From: Hysterangium stoloniferum
Lineage: Eukaryota > Basidiomycota > Agaricomycetes > Hysterangiales > Hysterangiaceae
DNA: 64,000 nt
Direction: 5' to 3'
Assembly: GCA_015178975.1 (NCBI GenBank)
Contig: WHVD01000018.1
Location: 248,001-312,000, forward strand
Shown: piece after piece, positions 49,533 through 63,927 of the stretch
Layout: every line of letters starts with the position of its first letter
How positions within the stretch are numbered: position 1 is the first letter of the stretch
Program-made: the position numbers and the translations under genes
The notes under the pieces: generated by a model
Seen by the model: only the letters and a program-made list of their open reading frames with translations
What the model was told of the DNA's origin: nothing
The model's database searches: none

Positions 49533-49950
49533 TTAAGCGAGACGAAGGTCCAGCAGGCCGGGAGGTTGAGTGTTAGGAACAGCCCAATGAAGCCTGGCAG
49601 AGAGGTTGAGTACACATGTACAGGAGGACTCGATGTAAATTTTGTAGGCGTCGCTGCGCCAACGCCCCAACAATTGGATTTCATAGTCGGGGAACCCTGC
49701 TTCAGCAGCGGAGGAAGCCGCGCCTCTACGAAAGGAGTGACCTGCAAAGGAGGCAGAATTGAAACCGGCAGTTTGGAGGAGGGATTTGAGAGAAGACACG
49801 AAGAGTGAGTACTGGAGGGGGGACCCATCGCTGTTGCAAAACAGCGGTGAATTGGGAGTGTGTGGATCTACAGTGAAGAGGTATTTGAGGGCTATTGTGA
49901 GCAGAAAAACCTCGAATGTGCCTGCAAATCCTCCTAACTGCTGAAGACGT
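49533..49950 (-). mobile_element. Tyrosine recombinase fragment (Crypton- or DIRS-type fossil)
   Basis: The minus strand reads FAGTFEVFLLTIALKYLF, then GHSFRRGAASSAAEAG, with the H-x-x-R box of tyrosine recombinases. LLGRWRSDAYKIYIES follows, the region carrying the next conserved residue and leading to the catalytic Tyr. Only the C-terminal catalytic part is recognisable. Such recombinases in fungi come from Cryptons or from DIRS-like elements; no reverse transcriptase is seen nearby, so the source is open. It is a fossil. Confidence 0.7.
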
Positions 49951-50011
49951 TGTAGAGCGACTAGTAAACAATGCGGCTGTTGTACTAGTAGGCTAAATAA
50001 TGAAAGGACAA

Positions 50012-50245
50012 TTAGCCCGAAGATGACACCCGTGTTTTTGGTGGTTGTCGTTGGCAGTCGTTAAAGTAGGCTGAAACGGTGACTACTGCGTTAGTGAGAG
50101 TTATTCCGAGACAAGCTTCACCCTTTTCTTTCATCTTCGTGAAGATAAGAGCGGGTTTTTCTTCAGGAATATTCTCTATGAGTTGAAGTTCAAGGAAATT
50201 AAATGTTAGTTTGGGAAGTGAATGTCTGATTGCGCTGCAAGCCAC
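50012..50245 (-). pseudogene. Hsp70 gene fragment
   Basis: The minus strand reads [44 protein letters not shown], which matches the Hsp70 ATPase segment around ...[36 protein letters not shown]. Canonical [17 protein letters not shown] has become [17 protein letters not shown], with Pro, Ser and Ala positions changed. A normal Hsp70 has about 640 residues; only about 55 are seen here. It is a host-gene pseudogene scrap beside the recombinase fossil, possibly a retro- or transduplicated piece. Confidence 0.75.
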
Positions 50246-50675: not shown

Positions 50676-51560
50676 ATGAACCATGGTGAGAATGTCAATC
50701 GTTCATTTACAATCCATCTAATCGACATCTATATATCAGAACAAATTGCGAAAGATCCCAATTCCACCCATGCAGAAATGGGCCGCGGTGAGAGTTTCCG
50801 TCGTTCATTTACTATCCATCTAATCGACATATGTATATCAGGACAGATTGCGGAAGATCCCAATTCCAGCCATGCGGATCACCTCGATACCATTTGCAAG
50901 GGATTTGATATCCTTGCCCTGGCAGTATGTCGACTTCTTTCCAAAGAATAGACTCAACTAATGGCACCAATAACCATACTTCAGGCGACATTCATGTGTG
51001 CGATCCAATCGCAAGTGTTGAGTACCACGCTAAGTGGTCTCCCAGATACCACAGCTGTCCGTGCTACGAACACATTTTATCTGTCAGGACTTACCCTCGA
51101 CTTTTGTTCTGCGTGTCTGGCCTGCCTCTCATCCCGCTGGTTCCAAAGGCTCACAAATGCTGAGAAGAAGTATCTTCAGGCTGTTTTCTCAACTCGAGCG
51201 AGAATACAGTCTCAACGGGCGGCTCTCGACCATGGTCCCCAAACCAAACAATCTCTCGAGCGGGGCGAAGGCGATTCACTCGAGTATACGCAATGGTCTT
51301 TGTCTGAACGAATATTAATCTCGTGGTACAGCATGTCACTGTTCGTACCTATGGGATTCCTGATATTGGGTACCGTATGCATGGTAGTAGGACTGTATAT
51401 ATATGTATGGTCCCAGCATCCGCTGCCCGTATCCATCACGGTATCCTTGGCTGGCATTGTAACCCTGCCATTTATAATCGGCGTGTTTTCAATTGGAAGA
51501 GCTGATGAGAGGCGTAGAACGGTTATTCGACGTTTGAGCAGGATGCAGGGTGATTGGTGA
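50676..51560 (+). CDS. Three-helix membrane protein of the GDW paralog array, member 1
   Basis: Model: exons 50676-50685, 50740-50787, 50842-50924 and 50985-51560 (238 residues). The last intron lies at phase 0 after GFDILALA, as in all five paralogs. The main exon reads ATFMCAIQSQVLSTTLSGLPDTTAVRATN, then a hydrophobic helix (FYLSGLTLDFCSACLACLSSRWFQRLTNAEK). A charged loop and two further membrane spans follow (SMSLFVPMGFLILGTVCMVVGLY; PVSITVSLAGIVTLPFIIGVFSI). It ends RRRTVIRRLSRMQGDW. Upstream, a 102-base intron-plus-exon unit is tandemly duplicated. Both 54-base introns lack in-frame stops, so unspliced reading also stays open. Function is unknown; the first 10-base exon is uncertain and the true 5' end may lie upstream. 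Confidence 0.75.
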
Positions 51561-51857
51561 CTGTATGCGAGTGCATTTTTGGAACTGAATCCCTGTGTTA
51601 TTTATGTAACATATAAATTTAAAAGAATCTATGGCGGTCCCTGGTCGGTCGTATGTTCAAAATGTGAATAGGTCTCGCGCTCTGCCACATTTGTTGCGAC
51701 TTTTTCTACAACATCCGGTTTGTCTCTTGCATAATCGAATATTTTAGATGATTTCTGACTCAATAGACTGTGTTTTAAGGCAATACCTATCGGGAACCGG
51801 GAACATGTTTGAATAATATCACAGCACAAAGTACTTTCCCCTCCACAAAGCATTACG

Positions 51858-52010
51858 CATGCTTGTTGGATATTTACAACCAAACATGTCCTTGTGGCTT
51901 ATTATCTCTGTCGTTGCTATTTATTCACCATTCTGTGCTTGTTCGATATTTACAAAAGAAACATGTCCTTGTGCTTTCTTATCTCTGTCGTTGTTAGTCC
52001 TTCACCATTA
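51858..52010. repeat. Tandem duplication of a 79-base unit
   Basis: TGCTTGTTGGATATTTACAA...ACATGTCCTTGTG...TTATCTCTGTCGTTG...TTCACCATT occurs twice in a row (51858 and 51937) with scattered changes. It lies in the gap between array members 1 and 2, where no gene is recognised. Confidence 0.75.
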
Positions 52011-52911
52011 TATCCGACGTCTCATTCAATTTTCTCCTGCCTCTGGTCTGCCTTCGCCGAGTGGCACATTGTTTACACTTCAGTTCGCTACTCCGGCGAA
52101 AATTCTATATATTTAAGTAGTACCATTGTTCCAATATTCAAAGAATCCTTCACGAATTGGGAGTACAATAAAATGTAATATCCTGCCTGCAATGCACCTA
52201 TCTTATTCGTTTGGATGCGCAACTGTGACGATCTATTAAGGGGTATCACAGTGGAAGATTTGAGGGTCGTTTTGCTACGGGTTTCATTTGTATTTCTTGT
52301 CTAAATCCAGCTGTCAATAGGCTTCAATTATTTTCCGTTTGACAGAGTAGGCAACAATTTACTCGTTGCAAACGGATGGATACTGCAATACAACATGTCT
52401 CATCCTTTACACACCCCTTATAGTTCGAGTCCTTGCAGCTCACATATTGAGTTGCAAAATGCAACAGGTCCGCCACAGATGCCGTTCCAAAACGCATTTA
52501 GAGGCGTTTTTCAAAGCTGAATCCACAAACGTTTGGCGAATCGGACGTCACTATGATCCTCCCTAATGTAAAAATAAAAATAAAATAGACTGTAACAGAC
52601 TGCTGTGTGGCAGTTGACTCTTCTAGATATGTAAACGTTTTTGCTTGCCAGGGAAGCGCCAAATGTGCAGTTGGAATTGGAAGATCGAACTCACGTCAGA
52701 TTGCAGCACTGATTGCTAAGAGGTCGAACCAGTGGAAGGCTTACAGCTCATGCCGAACATCAATTTGTTTTATCAATATATTTTGGTTTTGCAGCGCCTC
52801 CATAATCCAGATCGCCAGACTATTTTCAATGGAAGGCAGGAAGTCCTGAAGCACTGCCAACACCGCTTGGCCTGTTCCTTATTTCTGCGAAGAAGTATAC
52901 CACTTTCTAGC

Positions 52912-53867
52912 ATGGCAGTTGAAACAATCTCCTCAATTATTCGGAGTCAACTTAGTTGGTTATCGATTACAAGAGGCGATGTCGGTCGAAGAGACTCAAT
53001 GGACACGTTGTGTTCCCCAATATCCGACACTTCGTCGATAGCAAAAGGTAGAGTGGAAGCTGGGATCCTGGAAAGCGGTAAGGTTGTTTTACCGTGTGTT
53101 TTCACTCGCTGACTCTGTAATCGTTTCCTACATATAAGGCTGGGGTAAAAATCACGGGTCACCCCATGAAACTGATGTCGACCACCTCGATGTTCTTTGT
53201 AAGGGATTCGAGATGATAGCATTCGGGGTATGCGAATGCATGGTGCCCAACATATTACACGCACTGACTATTTCATTCTTAGGCTACATGCTTATCCGCA
53301 GTGCAATCGCAAGTAATGAGCACCACACTCAGTCTTCCCGACAGCACCGCCATCCGTACCATAAATGCATTTTATCTCTCCGGGCTCATTTTCGACCTCA
53401 TCACTGCCTGCCTCGCCATCCTCACATCCCGCTGGCTTCAAAGACTCACAAATTCCGAAAAACATTACCTCCAGCACAGTTTTGCAACGCAAGCCAAGGC
53501 AGCGTCTGAAGCCAGAACCCTGAATTTGAACCAAACATCAGAACATAAACAATCCCTAGACCAGGACAATGACACGATTTCGAGTTCCGAGGAGGAGTCT
53601 TTTTCTTCATACGAAAAAATACTCATTCCATGGTTCAGCCTGGCGCTTTTCGTGCCGATGCTATTCCTTGCGCTTGGTGGCGTATGCATGTTAGCCGGAT
53701 TATATACTTATGCATGGTCACAACAACCCCTTCCTGTAGCAGTCGTGATGTCATTAGCCGGGTTTTCTACCCTGCCGTTTATTGTCGGCGTTTTTGCAAT
53801 TGGAAGAGCGGATGGAAGGCGCAGACGAATCATTCGGCGCTTAAGCAGGATACAGGGAGATTGGTGA
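52912..53867 (+). CDS. GDW-array membrane protein, member 2
   Basis: Model: exons 52912-53077, 53139-53227 and 53283-53867 (279 residues, phases 1 then 0). The N-terminal exon encodes a cytosol-like Ser/Arg-rich stretch (MAVETISSIIRSQLSWLS...). Exon 2 carries DVDHLDVLCKGFEMIAFG. Exon 3 carries ATCLSAVQSQVMSTTLSLPDSTAIRTINAFYLSG, RWLQRLTNSEKHYLQ, a variable charged loop rich in Gln/Ser, and two membrane spans (LFVPMLFLALGGVCMLAGLY; VVMSLAGFSTLPFIVGVFAI). It ends RLSRIQGDW. The ATG at 52912 follows an open frame back to 52732, so an earlier start is possible. Predicted topology puts the conserved FDILALA/ATFLSAIQ block before the first helix. Function unknown. Confidence 0.78.
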
Positions 53868-54099
53868 CTGCATTGGTTTCGGGGGATATTAATAGAAGTC
53901 TTCATCTGTTTGTGGTGCTCTATTTCCTCTTACATGTCGTCTATAGCCCTCGACGCTAGTCTGCCAGTGCCATCCCATAAAGCTATGTTCATTAATCAAA
54001 CACTATGGTGGCTTTTTTCATAAACACAGCCTTTGGCACGCGCTGTCGCATGACAGAAGTTCCCAGTGACAATCTGTTTCGACACCCCAGCTGGCGGTC

Positions 54100-54981
54100 T
54101 CTTCTGGGCGGTGCCCATCCATTGTCAATTTAAGCCAGTTACGTAGGAATCAGAAATCAGGAAGTCTTTTAGGGCGAGCTATGCATGCACTCGTCCATTA
54201 TGTATATATGAGTTGATTCCTCCATGAGGCGACCGCACAGCCACATGCCGGTGCTGAGTTCCCTTTACAACACTTCAAACACCTTGTGCACGCGCCATTA
54301 TTTTCTTGACCTTCTAAGGGCCAAAATTTCTACCTTGTGTGGGACAAATGGGCCGGAAGTCTCAGGTTCCAGGATGAATTATACTGGGTAAAGCATGCGC
54401 CACTAGCTCCCCCTCAAATATTTCCGTCGATAATACATCATAGAGGAGGCATGACAAGACCTTCAATGCCTTTCTCTGATATTTGAGGACATTTCATTTT
54501 GTGAAAAATAATATCGTGACAACCAGAAATGAAGAAACAGTGATAGCTTCCAGTTGTGGTATCAGTTCCAACCACGGTATCATATAACCGAAGAGCGGCG
54601 ACAGGCTTAGAACCGCGTCTCCTGCCCTCGGAGGGCAAAGCGCACACCGGAATTGCCACATTCACTTCTCGTTTATCAGTTCTTTTTATTAATATCAAGA
54701 ATTGCAACCACGATGATCGGCGGTTGGCCCCTTGATGAGGTGGTGGGGATGCTTCGTACCTCCGACACGGAAAGTGTATTGTACTGGGGCTGAGGCTGTT
54801 CAGCCTAAGGGTGTCATGACTTCAAGTATCATTATTACTACTAGTGCAGGCAGCATCACAATATGTTTGCTGACATGTACTTTTTTACACATTACAGGAA
54901 AATGGCATTCTAACTCCAAAACTTACACAATTATTACAAGAAGAATCCGGAAAAACAAGCAAGAAACATCAAAGCACTGAT
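54100..54981. other. Intergenic stretch, no gene recognised
   Basis: A minus frame at 54438-54707 has no domain. The region lies between the 3' ends of array member 2 and the REEP gene and probably contains their 3' flanks. Confidence 0.45.
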
Positions 54982-56381
54982 TCATTCGGTCTTAACCCTC
55001 TCATACCCGCCCGCCCTACCCTGACTACTCTCCCTACCCCACCACCAAAAGCTCGCAACACCGGCACCGCCGTTCTCCTCAGGATCACCATCATCCACAA
55101 CATCCAGGTCCCCAAATACATATCCACCGTCGTCATCATCTCGCCCAATCTCAACATACTTGCCTTTATCAGCGTCACCAGGCGGGGGACGTGGCGGGGA
55201 GGGTGCAGACCCGAGAGAAGAAGAGAGGGGGTTAGATGGAGATGAAGAGTCGACGACCGGTGCAGGTGCAGATGTACCGGCTAACACGGAGAACGTGGAA
55301 GAAGATGGATCATGTGTTGGAACCGGCGGCAACGCCGCCAATTCAGCTTCGAGGGCACGACGACGCGCGAGGATCTGTGCGTGGTTGCGCTGGAGGTCGT
55401 GGTGTCTGTCGATGGCGGTTGATGTTCCCGTGGTGGGGGGTTGCGGTGCGGGGTGATTTGTGGCTTGGGTTCTGATTGCGGTTCCAGAGGTCGATGTCGA
55501 CGTGGACGTAGATGCATGCTGTGGAGTCTGTCTCGCAGCCGTCGTAACATCCCCCGGGGTCGGCTCCACAAAAGCAGCAATTTGCGGCCCATATAGGCGC
55601 CACAGTCCCAGCAGAGCCTGTGCTGGAGCACTCATCACCATCGCAGCGGTGGAAGTAGGCGGTGGCGTCTGCGCGTGAGCTGAAAAAGGCGGCGAATCTA
55701 GTCCTCCGCCATTCAGACCAGCACCCGCACCCGCACCCGCACCCGCACCCGCACCCACGCCAGCGCCATCACCAAAGCCCATACCCGCACCCGTGACCCC
55801 ACCGCCAACCCCCATAACACCCGCAACCCACACCAATGCTGCTCTCCCAGCCCTCGCAAGGTACTCCCAAAACTGACCCCGAACTTCTCCGATCTTGAGA
55901 TCGATCACGGGCTCATTGGTGAGGAGGAACGGGTGCAAGTGATTTGTGTATATGTATGAAGAGCCTTGTGTGTATGGGAGTGAGAGATAGAGGAAGAAGA
56001 GCGTTTTAGCCGGGGTGTAGAACGGGATCCTGTGCGCTATGGGCGTTAGACGTTGATCTCTCGAAGGATGACGAGTGAGCGAGGACAGACCAGCTTACAG
56101 CCCATCCAGCTATATACTCTGCTCCGATTATAATGCCTAGGACAGACCTTGGACTGGGTGAGTCGACACAGGTATCAAGTGAAACGGAAACACACCAATA
56201 CATCAACCATCTCTCAATCTCACTCTCATCGGCCGGTCTTTTCGAAAGGGTCTTATACGAGGCATAAGTTGGATATAGAAATGCCGTCGTCGCACTAGAT
56301 ATATCAGTTGGAGTGTAGGTAAATATTCGGCATAGCCTCACAAACGCACCTGATCACATGTAAAACGAGATAAACCAACAT
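54982..56381 (-). CDS. REEP/Yop1 (TB2/DP1/HVA22) family protein with long disordered tail
   Basis: Model on minus: exons 56381-56350, 56294-56194, 56136-56091 and 56029-54982, 408 residues, phases consistent. The N-terminal domain reads FLYPTYASYKTLSK, ERWLMYWC, AEYIAGWAVSWIPFYTPAKTLFFLYLSLPYTQGSSYIYTNHL in separate stretches. This is the TB2/DP1/HVA22 hallmark: hydrophobic hairpins that curve the ER membrane and shape tubules. The remaining 250 or so residues are low-complexity: a Gly/Ala repeat from a (GCACCC)n minisatellite, Ser/Thr/Pro stretches, one short helix (HAQILARRRALEAELAAL) and an acidic end (GDLDVVDDGDPEENGG). Yeast Yop1 is about 180 residues, so the tail is an addition of roughly the size of the domain itself or more; longer C-terminal tails are known in fungal relatives. 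Assignment of the domain is confident; the role of the tail is unknown. Confidence 0.88.
55721..55756. repeat. (GCACCC)n minisatellite inside the REEP gene
   Basis: Six perfect GCACCC units code on minus for alternating Gly-Ala in the disordered tail. A length change in units of six bases would keep the frame, so the tract may vary between strains. Confidence 0.9.
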
Positions 56382-56592
56382 CCTATTATCATTAGATCGC
56401 GATTGCACGTATGTCGACTAGTGTAGAAGATAGGAGGATTCAGTCAGGAGACAAGAAGAGAGCGAGACAGTTAAGGAGACCAAGGAGACAGGAGACAGGG
56501 ATACGACTCCCGCAGCACAGACATGTTCCTCTGTCACGTGGTGGATTTCTAACGTCTGTTCCAATTTTTGTCGCTACTCACCTTATGCGTGG

Positions 56593-56672
56593 ACGCATAT
56601 GGTGAAATGGTATCATGCTTGCCTTCCAGGCTGAGTGAGCAAGCGGCCGGGGTTCGATTCCCCGTGTGCGTA
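56593..56672 (+). tRNA. tRNA-Gly (anticodon TCC) with 9-base intron
   Basis: A full cloverleaf can be folded. Acceptor stem ACGCATA pairs with TGTGCGT (56665-56671) and the discriminator is A (56672). The D stem is GTGA/TCAT with loop AATGGTA. Anticodon stem CTTGC pairs with GCAAG, and the T arm is CGGGG-TTCGATT-CCCCG. The anticodon TCC is at 56625-56627, followed by A37 and an intron of 9 bases (56629-56637, GGCTGAGTG), at the canonical 37/38 position. Mature length is 71 before CCA addition. It reads GGA codons. Confidence 0.92.
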
Positions 56673-56876
56673 TTTTATGTTTTTTGAAACACTTCATTAT
56701 TTTTACCGATATGAAGACGGACATGAAGTTTGTTATTAATAGAATGCCCATTTATTTTTCTCGGCAGAAGAGCTTAATGTGACAAGCTGGCTATCTGGTC
56801 ACCTTATTCACCTTATTGCATACAGCATTGGTCTAACGCTGTACCTTGTTCCTTTCCACTGCTATCTCAAAGTGAC

Positions 56877-57793
56877 ATGCCCCCCCCATTCCCGACGCAA
56901 AAACGTACTAAGCAACAAATGAGTTATAGCAGCAGTTGTATGACCAAAGTGGAAGAGGAATGCAAAGATCTCACGCCTATCTCTCCGTCCAGTGGGCATC
57001 CACAGTTTACGGAACCGGAGGATATAGAACGTGCTGGTTTGTGTTTTGATCTGTACCAAGTATAATTTACCAATCTAATAACCTGGCACCCTACGATAGT
57101 TGAATCCATTCACGTAGACCACCTACATGTTCTCTGTCAGGGATTTGACATACTAGCACTCGCGGTACGCAATCAAAAAAGCGTGAATCTTACTCATTGA
57201 CACCCCCTACTTCCCAGGCCACATTCCTCTCAGCAATCCAAGCTGGAGTAATGAACATCTCTCTAAATATTCTGCCCGACACCATCGCCGTCCGCGTCAC
57301 AAATGCACTCTATCTCTCAGGCCTCGTCTTGGACCTCATGTCCGCCTGCCTCGCGTTCCTCACATCGCGCTGGTTCCAAAGACTAACAAACGCCGAAAAA
57401 CACTTCCTCCAAGAGGCTTTCACAGCCCGTGAAAAAGAAAAATCCGAACGAAAAGATGGCATCGCTCCACCCACGCAGAAAAAATCCTACGATCGAAAGG
57501 AAGGCGATATACTAAAGACATCGAAACTGGCTGGGATCGAAAGGATTCTGATCCCGTGGTTTAGTCTTTCTCTATTCATCCCTTTGGTTTTCCTAGTTCT
57601 CGGTGCCCTATGCATCTTAGCGGGACTATACATATACACTTGGTCGCAACAACCTTTCCCTGTCGCCATTGTGGTGTCTCTCGCGGGCCTTTCGACCGTC
57701 CCATTTATTGTCGGCGTCTTTGCAATTGGGAGGGTTGACGAAAGGCGTAGGAAGATTATTCTGCGATTGAGCCACATCCAGGGAGATTGGTAA
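56877..57793 (+). CDS. GDW-array membrane protein, member 3
   Basis: Model: exons 56877-57036, 57100-57164 and 57218-57793, introns of 63 and 53 bases, 266 residues. Exon 1 gives a polar head (PQFTEPEDIERA); exon 2 gives HVDHLHVLCQGFDILALA. Exon 3 opens ATFLSAIQAGVMNISLNILPDTIAVRVTN, with a first helix (LYLSGLVLDLMSACLAFLTS), RWFQRLTNAEKHFLQEAF and a charged loop. Spans two and three follow (LFIPLVFLVLGALCILAGLYIY; AIVVSLAGLSTVPFIVGVFAI), ending RLSHIQGDW. A GC-richer third codon position than in flanking DNA suggests it is under coding constraint. It starts 204 bases after the tRNA. A later ATG (MSYSSS, 14 codons in) is an alternative start. Function unknown. Confidence 0.8.
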
Positions 57794-57954
57794 CTCGTGC
57801 ATATTTTTGTCCCTGTGCCCCCCAGCCCACTTATGCTTATGAACAGGCATGTCCCTGTTGATCGGCTATTCCCACTTGCAAAGTTCACGCCAGATACTTA
57901 TTGGGGAATTAACTTCCCGAGCTATGAAGACTTTAAGACCATCTGGGATCGTCT

Positions 57955-58025
57955 ATATATATAGGATCAGTATATAGGACCAGGATGTGGGACCAGGATA
58001 TGGGACCAGGATATAGGATCAGATA
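57955..58025. repeat. Minisatellite of 12-14 base units
   Basis: Five imperfect units of the type ATATAGGACCAGG / ATATGGGACCAGG follow one another just downstream of array member 3. Unit differences are single bases. No function is evident. Confidence 0.85.
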
Positions 58026-58099
58026 TGTATTATACTATGATCCGTCTGTAATAAGTTACCACCATTTACTCTGTCAAACGAAAGCTTTTCGGTCTCTAG

Positions 58100-59890
58100 A
58101 ACAGCAATGATTATTTTGATAGCTCAACCTAGTGAATAAAGGAGTGTTTCCTTATAATTTTGTAAATGATAAGAATATCGCCTTTGCGGGAGCAAAGCCG
58201 CAAGATGATGATTGCGAAGCAAAGGTACTATGCCCTCATTTTAGGGCCATCACCAAAAAAATGGTGTTTTTCCAAATTAAACTCGTTATCCTCTCATCCT
58301 CTTGATCTTCGACTCCCAATTCATCATCTGGATCCTCGACTGCCTCAGACTCATCGATATTGTTGCCAACCGGATGAGACTGAATCCGTCAAGTCAAGGA
58401 TGGATCTGACTCTGAATCCGTGCTCAGATCCAGAGGCTGAGGATGAAGACGATAAAGATAGATTAATGATACTCATTGAATATACAGGGTGCGAACGCCC
58501 CTTTGTCCTCTCTATGATGCCTGTAACATGGCTTAATATGTCTTGGCACATTGTCTTGTGGATACAACCACCGTAGCAGGAGATGATTTGTAAGGGTTAC
58601 CCCTACAACGTATGTGGACTCTATACAATAGCTTGGACATCCAAATACACGTCTCTTGCTAAATCCATAAAGGATAATAAAATGAATGCTGACCTAGCAA
58701 GAGAAAAGCCAAAGAAAAGGGCTAAAAATTTCTTCTGTGATAGTCTCTACAACATCGGGTTCCAGCCTCTGATCAGGTTGCCACTAGAGCTCTACCCTAT
58801 ACGCAGATCCTGCACCTCTTCAGATGTGTTACTTCAATTGTTTGTTCTTAGACTCCTGTCACCAATATTTGTAGCTTTTTTTTTCCTATCCCCAGCCTCA
58901 CATTTATTTCCTCATTTGGACTTGTTGCTAATCATTCCTTTCTCATTTGTCCCGTATCCGTCATTTCTCATATAGGCTCAGATTGAAGTCCACAGACACT
59001 GCAGGGTTTCCTCTACAATCAATATAATATTCGAGCATGGTTATGTACTTTGGCTGTAATAATGGCATGTTGTCTGCTACGTATAGAAGGCATCAAATTA
59101 TCATTTCTTCTTCTTTTTTTCAATATGTAGGACATGTGGTTTGCTCCAATGTCCCGGGCCCAATCTGCCTAGTCTGGTCCACGTCCACCTTCCCGTTTGC
59201 CATAGTTACGCCTTCTACCACTTTTGCTATCTTCACTTACCATCTCAAGTTGGCTCACGAGTGTCACTATTTCAAACGGGACCTGTCTGTCCAGCGTGGC
59301 TGTGGCAGGCAGTTCGGCTGTGCCTCTTATTGGGAACTTGCGCAGACCACAGTAGATATTAGAATGTAACTTGGTTTGTATCTATGGGTGAATTACTGGG
59401 GGTTATATATATCTGCAGGGAACAAATTTCTCGAAGGGATGACAGATATAACTCAAAGCTATGTTAAGTATTTTCCGAGGTATTCTATAATATTCTAGGA
59501 TGTCAGGTTGATTACCAACATCTATCTCTCCGACTCGGGACTTTGGTGATGGAGGCTATGGTGATTTGGCGCGCAGGGAGCGCCCTGGATGGAGCGTTAT
59601 GTGTATAAAATTCATTCAATACTCTCAAAATGTTGATATCCTCAAGATTTTATTCAAATTAATACTATTTGTACAACAACTAGACGCTTCAACCCGAAGT
59701 TGAAAGCGTTTAAGACATTTGTAACAGTAGCGCTGCCTTTTAACTCTCTGACAGGGGCTCCGTAGGTTCCTTTGGAGCGAGCTCCTATGACACTGAAGCT
59801 ATGACATGGCAATGATTCACATGCTTGTATACTAGGTACATGACGGCACGACGCGGGTTTAAGGACATTGCCACCCTCTACAAACGACCA
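58100..59890. other. Gap between array members 3 and 4, no intact gene recognised
   Basis: Frames at 58166-58576 and 58583-58975 show faintly protein-like text (an acidic EAEDEDDKDRL stretch, a hydrophobic run near 58870) but no domain. They may be remnants of a transposase-like gene. Nothing here is supported enough to call. Confidence 0.4.
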
Positions 59891-59894
59891 ACAT

Positions 59895-60791
59895 ATGCAT
59901 CCTTGTCCAGCAAACGAAGCCCAAAGTGAAGGTTCATTGATCTCGCATAGGCCCGCTACCTGTCTGTCATATGATGAAACCGAGAGCATGGACATAGGAC
60001 ATGGTGAGATTTTGTTTCATATACGCATTTCCCATTTACCTGAATTCGCACCACACCTTAAAAAGTACCTGATACCAACCATGATAGAAGCACAGACCAT
60101 ACAGATATTATCTGTAGAGGTTTTGATATGGTAGCCCTCGCGGTATGCGATAATTTTCTTTTATTTTCATAATCCCTCTCACATAGACTTGGACCATTCA
60201 TCTCAGGCCACAGTTTTATCTGCAATCCAATCACAGGTAATGGGTACCACACTAAACGGTCTCCCAGACACCACCTCAGTCCGCGCCACAAACGCATTCT
60301 ACCTCTCAGGCCTCATCCTCGATCTCATGGCCGCCTGCCTCGCATTTCTATCATCCCGCTGGTTTCAAAGACTGACGAACGATGAGAAGAACTTCCTACA
60401 GGATACCTTTACGGCTCGCGCGGCGGAGCGAGTTCAGCGAGCTGATCCCACCACTTCGAAACCTAAGCCGAATAGTAATCCACGCCATGATCAAGAAAAT
60501 GGCGAGATTTTGAAGGAGCAGCAATTGTGTGGCATCGAACGACTACTTATACCGTGGTATAGCCTCTCTTTATTCATACCTGTGGTATTCCTTGAATTGG
60601 GTGCCGTGTGCATTGTAGCTGGATTATACACCTATACTTGGTCACAGCAATCTCTTCCTGTTGCCCTTGTGGTATCCTTTGCCGGTATTTCGACCATTCC
60701 ATTTGTCATTGGGGTTGTTGCTATTGGGACAGTTGAGAAGAGACGCAGGAATATCATTCTCCAGTTGAGCAGAATACAGGGTGATTGGTGA
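59895..60791 (+). CDS. GDW-array membrane protein, member 4
   Basis: Model: exons 59895-60003, 60066-60142 and 60207-60791 (256 residues). Intron phases are 1 then 0, exactly as in members 2, 3 and 5. Exon 1 is polar (MHPCPANEAQSEGS...). Exon 2 reads STDHTDIICRGFDMVALA. Exon 3 gives ATVLSAIQSQVMGTTLNGLPDTTSVRATNAF, first helix YLSGLILDLMAACLAFLSS, RWFQRLTNDEKNFLQDTF and a Pro/Asn/Lys loop. Two spans follow (LFIPVVFLELGAVCIVAGLYTY; ALVVSFAGISTIPFVIGVVAI), with terminal QLSRIQGDW. The frame upstream of 59895 is open to 59868 without an ATG. The short second exon is fixed mainly by phase and by its similarity to paralogs. Function unknown. Confidence 0.78.
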
Positions 60792-61359
60792 ATCATGAAT
60801 AGAAGATCCGAACATGTAATTTATCATACAGCGTCCAGTTCGCATAATCATAGTCAGTGGTCAATCTTTTTGTTCCTCTTTTTAACATCATCTTGGTCTA
60901 AGTTTGTATAAATAGTTACAGTATTTCAGGGCTTGTAATGTATTTGTATAGATATAGTGTGAAAGCATCGACTAATCGAAATATGATGAAAAAGAAAAAT
61001 TTGGCCAAACACCTTGTTGGTACCCAGCGACAAGTCCACCATCCCCAGTCACATGACCAGGATTTCTGACCAGTCACGAGATAAACCGGTAACCGGTAAC
61101 TGAGGAATTCCGATGCAACAGCATGGAAGTGCGCGGAACACTTATTTGTCCGGTAGGTACTTACCAATGTTTTACTAATATCTCCTACTTACTAAAGATC
61201 TCCGGATCATAGTTAGTTGGATCAGTTAAATATTCGCAGGAATCCACCAAATGAGAAAAGGGGAATCTCCTGGAACCTCGCCCGTTGTAAATAATAACTT
61301 TACCTCTGAATGCCTTCTGTTGAAGTGGAAGCGTTACATAAACTACCTTTGGTAGTGAC

Positions 61360-61510
61360 TGCCAAGACCCGGCCTCAGGCCGTGGGCCGGCTCAGCTGGG
61401 GCCTGAAAAGCCCAAGCCGAGCTGGGCCAAGTAGCATCCACTCTGGGCCCGGCCTGGGATATTGTAAGCCCAAGCCGGGCTCCCAGGCCGCGGCCTGCTA
61501 GTGGCCCCAC
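61360..61510. repeat. GGCC/AAGCC-rich repeat block
   Basis: GGGCC, GGCCTGGG and AAGCCCAAGCC(G) motifs recur in both orientations within about 150 bases, giving strong self-complementarity and high GC. An adjacent plus frame (about 61600-61760) ends in an acidic tail (SSDEEEVYV). Such blocks occur near decayed hAT-type elements in basidiomycetes, but no transposase motif was seen. Confidence 0.5.
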
Positions 61511-61519
61511 GAGGTACTG

Positions 61520-63060
61520 CATGGTCAAGGATGGTCAAATTTTCTTCTGGCGACCAGTTCAATTTCTGTTCAGCCTCTTTGTACACAATGCCGCCAAAGT
61601 CAAGAACTTGCCTGGGACGGCCAAGTAAGTCCCCAAGGGGATGTTGAGAGTGACGGAGAAATCGAAACAAGTTCGTGGTGGGAAATTTTGGCTAGCGGGG
61701 ATTCAGAGGCCGCATTACTTAAAGTTGAGCTATCCTCTGATGAAGAGGAAGTTTATGTGTAATATACACTCATAATATTTTGAGAAGTTTATTTTATTTT
61801 ATTGGTAGACTATAAGTTTACAAATGCCATCTTGTACCATTTTTACCCGCGGCCTCCGGGGCTTTCGGCCGGGGCCATGACAATCACTAACCTTTGGTAA
61901 GCAGAACGCCGTACATATATAGAACAAATAGATAGCACTGGTAGTTGCTGAACTACTTATATGGAATGGAGACCGACCGCGTAGTCTCTCAGCGAAGGTT
62001 TATCACTCACTGAGAGTTATATTTAGAATTGCGCATAACTTTACTAATAACCACATAGAAATTGGCGGATACCAGATTGAGATTAGTTTTTATCCATTTT
62101 TGGGACGATCACCGATCCAATCAAAGAATGGACTTAGGTCATTATACCATTGCACATTCTTCGCGAGTAGTTCTGATTCGCCGGGCTAGCCAGTATTGCT
62201 GCGAGAATGGCTCAGGGAACATCTGCTTTTGATGAAATTGAAATTGAAATGCTGTGACAAAGTGCGCAGGTGGGGCCTCAGAGTCAGCATACACGCGGCT
62301 TTGAATTTGTTAGATTTATGAATTGGGAATTATGATACGTTATTATCGCGCGTTATGCGCAAGAAAACTGAAATACAGCAACGCTTGTATAAACTGTACC
62401 TCCTGAGCCTAGCTGACCCTCTTACCCCATAGTGATGATTAAGCCATACCACACTCCTCCAAGAAGCACGCCCAGCCTCTTCCAGAATTGTTTATGTAAT
62501 GTGTAAATTGGTCACTACGAGCATGGGAGGCACACAAGAATGGCGCCAAGTACCACATCATCACGCTCGCCCATCCTCGATTTACAAATGGGATGCCGGG
62601 TGTCCCCACTAAGGTCCCATTAACATTTGACATAGGAACAAGGATTTAGTCTTAATTAGCGCTGACTGTGTGAATATTAAACACTGGACTACTGGTGAAG
62701 CTGATTAATTAAACCAAGCCTTCGTTACCCCAGGGTCGAAATAACAAAGGGACCATGTGGACACATAACCTATTGTCCTCTTTGCTTCGTATCTTCCTTT
62801 ATTCCCTGTGTTAATATCACCTATTGTTGTCATTAGCATATATACAGTAGTCAAGGGGTCCTACCTCGGTCCATTATGCATATAAGAGACTGAGTTTATT
62901 CTTCGGTTTCTACCTCTGACACTTGGCAGGGGTGTCAAAGGGGAGGATATGTAGGAGCAATGATGCGGGAGAGTATCCATTTCCGGCTGCGACAACTTAA
63001 TCAAGTTTAGGAATTTTGGATAATGGTAGGGAGATGTAACGACAGAAAGACATGAGAATA
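61520..63060. other. Gap between array members 4 and 5, no intact gene recognised
   Basis: Apart from the short acidic frame near 61700 and a minus frame at 62439-62633 without domains, nothing is recognised. It contains the 3' flank of member 5 at the right. Confidence 0.45.
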
Positions 63061-63064
63061 GCAT

Positions 63065-63927
63065 TCACCAATCACCCTGCATCCTGCTCAATTGGAAGAT
63101 AATTTTTCTGCGTTTTTCTGGCTCTCTTCCGATGGCAAATACCCCGAGGATAAACGGCAGCGTCGAAAGTCCGGCTATAGACGCCAATATAGCTACGATT
63201 AGGGTTTGTTGTGACCATGTATAAGTGTACAGCCCTGCGACCATGCAGGCAATGCCCAGTACAAGGAATACGACGGGTGCGAACAACGATATGCTGTACC
63301 ATGTAATAAATATTCGATCGAGCCCGCCTAACTTCATACTCCGAAGAGGTCCGTCCTTGTCTCGTTCCCAAGATTCCTCAGGCTCGGGTATACAAATCTT
63401 AACATCAGACCTCTCCTTCTCCCGGGCTACAAAGACTGTCTGTAGCAATTCCTTTTCCGCCTTTGTGAGTCTTTGGAACCAACGGGACGTGAGGTAAGCG
63501 AGACAAGCGGAAAAGATGTCGAAAGTGAGCCCGGAGATATAGAAGACATTTATTGCATGTATGGCCGGAGTGTCAGGAAGTCCGCTCACTATGTTACTGA
63601 ATATTTGTGCTTGAATCGCGGACAAAAATGTCGCCTAAAATGCAGCCATTAGTGTGTATGTCATAACAATAAAACATTCTTGTATACCGCAAGTGCCAGT
63701 ATCTCAAATCCTTTGCAAAGCTCATCGAGATAGTCCGGGGCTCTTTGGGATGTAAGACTATTTTGCGTTTGGTCATCGTGGCCTGTGATAATTGGGTTGA
63801 CGGGCTTTATTGATGAGACTCGGGATATAAAAATTATCATTAAAACCAAGCTCTCACCCCCAGGATTTCTTATGGTCACAGGTTCTGGGTGAGTCGCTGG
63901 ATTGGAAGGGGGGGGAGGACCAATCAT
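63065..63927 (-). CDS. GDW-array membrane protein, member 5 (opposite strand)
   Basis: Model on minus: exons 63927-63858, 63782-63688 and 63634-63065 (244 residues), intron phases 1 then 0. Exon 1 is Pro-rich (MIGPPPPSNPATHPEPVTIRNPG). Exon 2 ends DYLDELCKGFEILALA. Exon 3 reads ATFLSAIQAQIFSNIVSGLPDTPAIHAINVFYISG, helix LTFDIFSACLAYLTS and RWFQRLTKAEKELLQTVF. A Glu/Lys loop and two spans follow (LFAPVVFLVLGIACMVAGLYTY; AILASIAGLSTLPFILGVFAI), ending QLSRMQGDW. The frame stays open to the window edge, so the gene may begin beyond 64000. It is the only inverted member of the array. Function unknown. Confidence 0.76.

Follow-up and report, generated by a model that had tools for sequence, protein, structure and literature searches.

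To which family do five neighbouring genes for small membrane proteins belong, when every one of them ends in the tripeptide GDW? The genes lie in a stretch of 64,000 nucleotides from Hysterangium stoloniferum (assembly GCA_015178975.1, contig WHVD01000018.1, positions 248,001 to 312,000 of the forward strand), here called the window; coordinates are counted from its first letter. This truffle-like basidiomycete of forests is ectomycorrhizal, and PMC7550596 includes its genome. An earlier, sequence-only reading of the window had found no named domain to fit the genes. They are very probably members of the DUF6535 (PF20153) superfamily, and the explanation that on balance accounts best for the whole, mechanism included, is a compact, single-domain and strongly diverged DUF6535-type subfamily marked by its C-terminal GDW. 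The gene models, which are based on reading frame, GT-AG splice sites and homology, are as follows.

50676-51560, plus strand: G1, exons 50676-50685, 50740-50787, 50842-50924 and 50985-51560; 238 residues; GDW end
52912-53867, plus strand: G2, exons 52912-53077, 53139-53227 and 53283-53867; 279 residues; DUF6535 at 25.4 bits (cut-off 23.9)
56919-57793, plus strand: G3, exons 56919-57036, 57100-57164 and 57218-57793; 252 residues; DUF6535 at 20.1 bits
59895-60791, plus strand: G4, exons 59895-60003, 60066-60142 and 60207-60791; 256 residues; DUF6535 at 21.2 bits
63065-63927, minus strand: G5, exons 63927-63858, 63782-63688 and 63634-63065; 244 residues; DUF6535 at 15.8 bits

The array of five paralogues, placed by the sequence-only reading at 50676-63927, is real. 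A search with the main exon of G3 recovers the other four window genes with E values from 4.7e-80 to 1.8e-68 (59-66% identity), a similarity far above chance. Each main exon opens with a segment of the ATFLSAIQ type and each protein ends in GDW, both as described before. The block given as RWFQRLTNAEK is likewise conserved in all five, in the shorter form RW[FL]QRLT.

In Pfam, each of the five proteins has DUF6535 as its best match, with G2 alone passing the cut-off, so that a named domain does fit the family. When 20 family proteins were scanned singly (the five window genes and 15 relatives), DUF6535 came out on top in 19; P0008 gave no Pfam match, and for none of the 20 was any other family better. 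Besides G2, P0010 (24.6 bits) and P0015 (24.0 bits) exceed the cut-off, P0005 is level with it (23.9 bits), and 15 proteins fall below (15.8-23.6 bits). Scans of two overlapping alignments, at E<=0.05, find DUF6535 in 13 of 14 and 18 of 20 members, and other families in at most three members. The strongest match to another family, ‘Sensor’ in P0014 (8.6e-4), is weaker than the DUF6535 match of the same protein (5.1e-5). Direct comparison of profiles points the same way; hhalign matches 24 GDW proteins to 46 classical DUF6535 domains over 156 columns with a score of 38.4 (probability 67%, E 5.2e-5). The controls score lower: 24.8 for the reversed template, 28.1 for the best of 200 column shuffles that keep the hydrophobic layout, and 21.2 for the best of 50 free permutations.

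The two groups also share an intron. All five splice models have a phase-0 intron after the same codon, as had been noted, the residues before it reading FEMIAFG in G2.

50925-50984, plus strand: phase-0 intron of G1
53228-53282, plus strand: phase-0 intron of G2
57165-57217, plus strand: phase-0 intron of G3
60143-60206, plus strand: phase-0 intron of G4
63687-63635, minus strand: phase-0 intron of G5

An intron-blind profile alignment pairs GFDILALA/ATFMCAI of G1 with GVDELLIY/AGLFRVS of classical DUF6535 (the row of P0024, with sparse columns removed), the slash marking the phase-0 intron of both groups. The comparison covers 26 classical loci of this genome, 21 of them distinct. An AG acceptor stands directly before the aligned codon in 21/21 distinct loci, and an in-phase donor is found in 20/21, 18 by pattern and two (L029, L030) by eye; the exception is L016. 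For 156 columns, three phases and one intron per domain, the chance of such exact agreement is estimated at about 1 in 470. Upstream of the phase-0 intron lies a phase-1 intron. It had been credited to four genes; the models have it in all five, and phase 1 followed by phase 0 is the order in all eight copies of the gene found in the genome.

The helix layout agrees as well. Three hydrophobic segments had been counted in the window genes; hydropathy finds four in each of these five, and in 8/8 genomic copies. An AlphaFold2 model of the deposited G1 protein, computed with 19 relatives, reaches a predicted local distance difference test (pLDDT) score of 75 and a predicted template-modelling (pTM) score of 0.65. 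Its long helices span residues 51-83, 88-119, 186-209 and 212-237, with a short helix (171-183) in front of the third transmembrane segment (TM3); further helices are placed at 3-26, 123-147 and, C-terminally, 239-252. The model of a classical domain, P0037 (pLDDT 67, pTM 0.53), shows helices in a similar order, at 45-104, 108-119, 132-165, 178-189, 191-221 and 223-249. A long TM1 helix, TM2, a short helix and a TM3-TM4 hairpin are common to both. A sequence-profile search of solved structures returned five chains at E values of 0.16-0.58, all judged to be chance matches.

Several points weigh against this placement. Four of the five window proteins are under the Pfam cut-off, and the stretch matched by Pfam covers little beyond the TM2 block in most members. 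The hhalign probability is just 67%, or 36% in forced global mode, and the cruder alignments of the first profile comparison gave only 37 columns, around TM2, at 52%. The hydropathy peak of TM1 is middling (1.5-1.8), helix 123-147 of the GDW model has no counterpart in the classical model, itself of modest confidence, and Foldseek searches of both models against solved structures gave no match at E<=0.001. The scores below cut-off and the short first alignment speak for an independent small four-helix family, such as a scaffold, channel or transport accessory, in which the likeness to DUF6535 would be due to convergence in TM2 only. The profile score, however, is not equalled in any of the 200 layout-preserving shuffles, and both groups have their phase-0 intron at one aligned codon, for which the estimated chance is about 1 in 470; we consider an independent family quite unlikely.

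Placed in the DUF6535 superfamily, of which little is understood, the GDW proteins make up a divergent branch without a name and extend the family beyond the reach of the Pfam model. DUF6535 is an expanded family without known function, represented in this genome by 75 exon-level matches (not a gene count); the one mention found in the papers searched is an expression table. With its classical members the GDW proteins share the best Pfam match, the order of the four membrane helices and the phase-0 intron. They differ from them in their size of about 240-280 residues, the lack of a C-terminal extension, a shorter TM1-TM2 loop, a variable TM2-TM3 loop, a basic tail ending in GDW, and scores that are mostly below the cut-off. 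Being minimal, with a single domain and an unvarying C-terminus, this branch would offer an easy way of finding out what the DUF6535 module does.

Among the matches listed, homologues come from Serendipita, Lyophyllum atratum, Tricholomella constricta and unnamed metagenomes; the search requires shared five-residue words, and the true spread may be wider. The proteins from the named fungi are 38-46% identical to G3 and end in GDW, except for the fragment P0021. Those of Serendipita mostly have a short N-terminus, and each lineage has its own paralogues. Across the GDW set, the Hysterangium copies included, 19 of 21 proteins carry the GDW end; P0003, which has a different end, is the exception besides the fragment. 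The end is found in 0/76 relatives of one classical protein (72 of them tagged PF20153, many partial; P0061 has an internal GDW).

A midpoint-rooted tree of 24 proteins, with 10 of its 21 inner branches open, unites the Hysterangium copies with four metagenomic proteins (support 99/99), six Serendipita proteins with one metagenomic protein (100/99), and two Lyophyllum proteins (100/99). It is weak in many places and does not settle the order of duplication within the array. G2 is grouped with P0005, and G3 with P0002/P0003, an indication that the duplications behind G2 and G3 predate the split from the source fungi of these proteins. The two Lyophyllum proteins are found on equally long contigs, as are two from Serendipita vermifera, and this hints that clustering of the genes recurs in other lineages.

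How the variation is distributed bears on the role of the proteins. The paralogues had been described as having conserved membrane helices alongside a variable N-terminus and central loop, and the segment identities support this; over the 28 pairs of the eight copies, the median amino acid identity is 0.24 for the N-terminus and 0.38 for the central loop, as against 0.74 for the TM2 block and 0.65 for TM3-TM4. The median proportion of nonsynonymous differences (pN) is below that of synonymous differences (pS) in all six segments; in order, pN/pS is 0.55/0.71 (N-terminus), 0.27/0.77, 0.13/0.69, 0.43/0.71 (central loop), 0.20/0.66 and 0.19/0.75 (tail), with pS saturated near 0.7. The copies are old duplicates under constraint and bear no sign of positive selection, though the dN/dS ratio is unreliable at saturated sites. 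The only unsaturated pair, the recent one of H235 and H509, has a pN of 0.019 and a pS of 0.067 overall; pN slightly exceeds pS in two of its six short segments (TM1 and TM3-TM4), on few changes.

Charge counts give an indication of the orientation in the membrane. In 19 full-length proteins, the means for lysine plus arginine against aspartate plus glutamate are 3.5/6.4 for the N-terminus, 0.8/1.5 for the TM1-TM2 loop, 10.4/10.4 for the TM2-TM3 loop, 0.4/0.05 for the TM3-TM4 loop and 6.7/2.2 for the C-tail; the proteins end about 20 residues past TM4. By the positive-inside rule, the C-tail and the variable central loop are predicted to be cytosolic, as is the N-terminus provided that TM1 crosses the membrane. 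What weighs against this orientation is that the central loop is charge-neutral and the N-terminus acidic, so that the prediction leans mainly on the tail. The predicted outer loops, TM1-TM2 and TM3-TM4, measure just 17 and 7 residues, which weighs against a variable surface domain.

The sequence-only reading had compared the array to fast-diverging surface or receptor-like families. Surface receptors or antigens of this kind would have an outward-facing N-terminus and loop diversified by selection; these are indeed the most variable parts, and the genes are clustered paralogues. The positive residues nevertheless put the loop and the C-tail inside, and together with the constraint in every segment this disfavours a diversifying surface antigen, which appears improbable. 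Constraint throughout would suit proteins of a different kind, namely tetraspan proteins that organise an organelle as a housekeeping task, play no part in recognition and have paralogues adapted to particular tissues or stages; the compact architecture is in keeping with this, and so are metagenomic proteins that look like orthologues of G2 and G3. Named relatives, however, come from few Agaricomycete genera among the matches listed (within the reach of a five-residue-word search, beyond which they may extend), and we find this alternative rather unlikely. Kinship with NINJ1, by which the GDW proteins would be Ninjurin-like and would rupture or bend membranes in fungal cell death, is a weak rival and highly improbable.

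For a DUF6535-type subfamily, the reading preferred here, a mechanism may be sketched, although as a whole it is tentative and open to considerable doubt. Four helices would sit in an internal membrane or the plasma membrane: TM1, whose coding sequence the phase-0 intron divides, TM2, which has RWFQRLT at its end, and the two of the TM3-TM4 hairpin. The N-terminus, the C-terminus and the central loop would all be in the cytosol. A basic C-terminal helix would end in the GDW carboxyl terminus. The helices may self-associate or bind to other DUF6535 proteins; the choice of partner would depend on the N-terminus and the loop, both variable and cytosolic, and the GDW tail would be an invariable end for docking or sorting. 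The partners that we favour would be proteins of the same genome in which DUF6535 is joined to an array of HEAT repeats. The computation supports the homology, the intron position, the helix layout, the charge bias and the conserved tail; from these we infer orientation, oligomerisation, partners and role. A partnership of the GDW proteins with the HEAT-array proteins is conjecture.

It is the classical DUF6535 genes of this genome that suggest such partners: at least one HEAT-like unit follows the domain in 14 of 16 loci (L019-L034), and at least eight units in 12. In L032 (2475-6959), a 166-bp unit of exon and intron is present 27 times in the array, and five of the unit peptides, when joined, match HEAT_2 at 1.6e-30. 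Over 188 units from 14 loci, variability is highest at the adjacent positions 24 and 25 (3.07 and 3.12 bits); the constancy of P13, L18, L19 and R27 is built into the search pattern. At positions 24/25, pN is 0.46/0.40 compared with 0.155 overall, and pS is 0.43/0.39 compared with 0.177 overall. As pS is also high there, the peak is no proof of positive selection.

Fungal NOD-like receptors (NLRs) are described as having highly conserved, internally similar repeats with variability at few positions (Dyrka et al. 2014, PMC4986451), and the DUF6535-HEAT units resemble these, by analogy only, in their internal similarity and in the focus of variability on few positions. The DUF6535-HEAT proteins, which resemble nonself-recognition receptors, are candidates for a family of recognition receptors built on repeats; a scan of a single DUF6535-HEAT open frame showed neither a NACHT nor an NB-ARC domain. 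The GDW proteins have the membrane module in common with them, but neither their HEAT array nor the repeats of NLRs. A pattern search finds no HEAT-like unit in the window, and its five GDW proteins give no Pfam match to NACHT or NB-ARC at E<=0.1. The GDW proteins might be stand-alone membrane partners of an undescribed class of nonself-recognition receptors (DUF6535 plus a HEAT array with hypervariable positions), hetero-associating through the shared four-helix module and signalling or restraining signalling via the GDW tail, much as small effectors work for NLRs; this is a speculative and unlikely extension.

Of the eight copies recovered from the whole genome (111 Mb) with G3's main exon as query, five are in the window, which is on contig C90 (1,016,692 bases). 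A sixth lies on C90 too, about 65 kb from the array, and C235 and C509 have one copy each. G1 corresponds to the deposited H. stoloniferum protein BU17DRAFT_85339 (P0004), except that the first 54-nt intron is kept as coding in P0004. Only G1 and the C509 copy (P0006, shortened) have deposited names in the protein database; G3 and G5 occur there as fragments without source, and G2 and G4 gave no return from this set, which is clustered at 90% and was searched by short words. Within such a search, four of the five window genes seem to lack annotation.

A tandem duplication at its 5' end gives G1 a second phase-1 intron.

50676-50879, plus strand: 5' tandem duplication of G1; 102 bp comprising ATG, 54-nt intron and micro-exon, 85/102 identical

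Both 54-nt introns in this part are a multiple of three in length and free of stops, and one is coding in the deposited model. The copies on C235 (L003) and C509 (L004) are a near-identical pair, except that SGL, three residues of TM2, is missing on C509. An inverted repeat with 40-nt arms (95% complementary) and 23 nt between them lies immediately upstream of the C235 copy, at L003 2454-2556, and is possibly a small element resembling a miniature inverted-repeat transposable element. Three further features lie within or beside the array.

49533-50060, minus strand: tyrosine-recombinase fragment just upstream of the array (Phage_integrase, PF00589, 28.7 bits; cut-off 27.1), presumably Crypton-like
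54982-56094, minus strand: open frame of 370 residues between G2 and G3 with a TB2/DP1/HVA22 match (E 3.5e-10), which we take to be REEP/Yop1-like
56593-56672, plus strand: tRNA-Gly (tcc), within the array between G2 and G3

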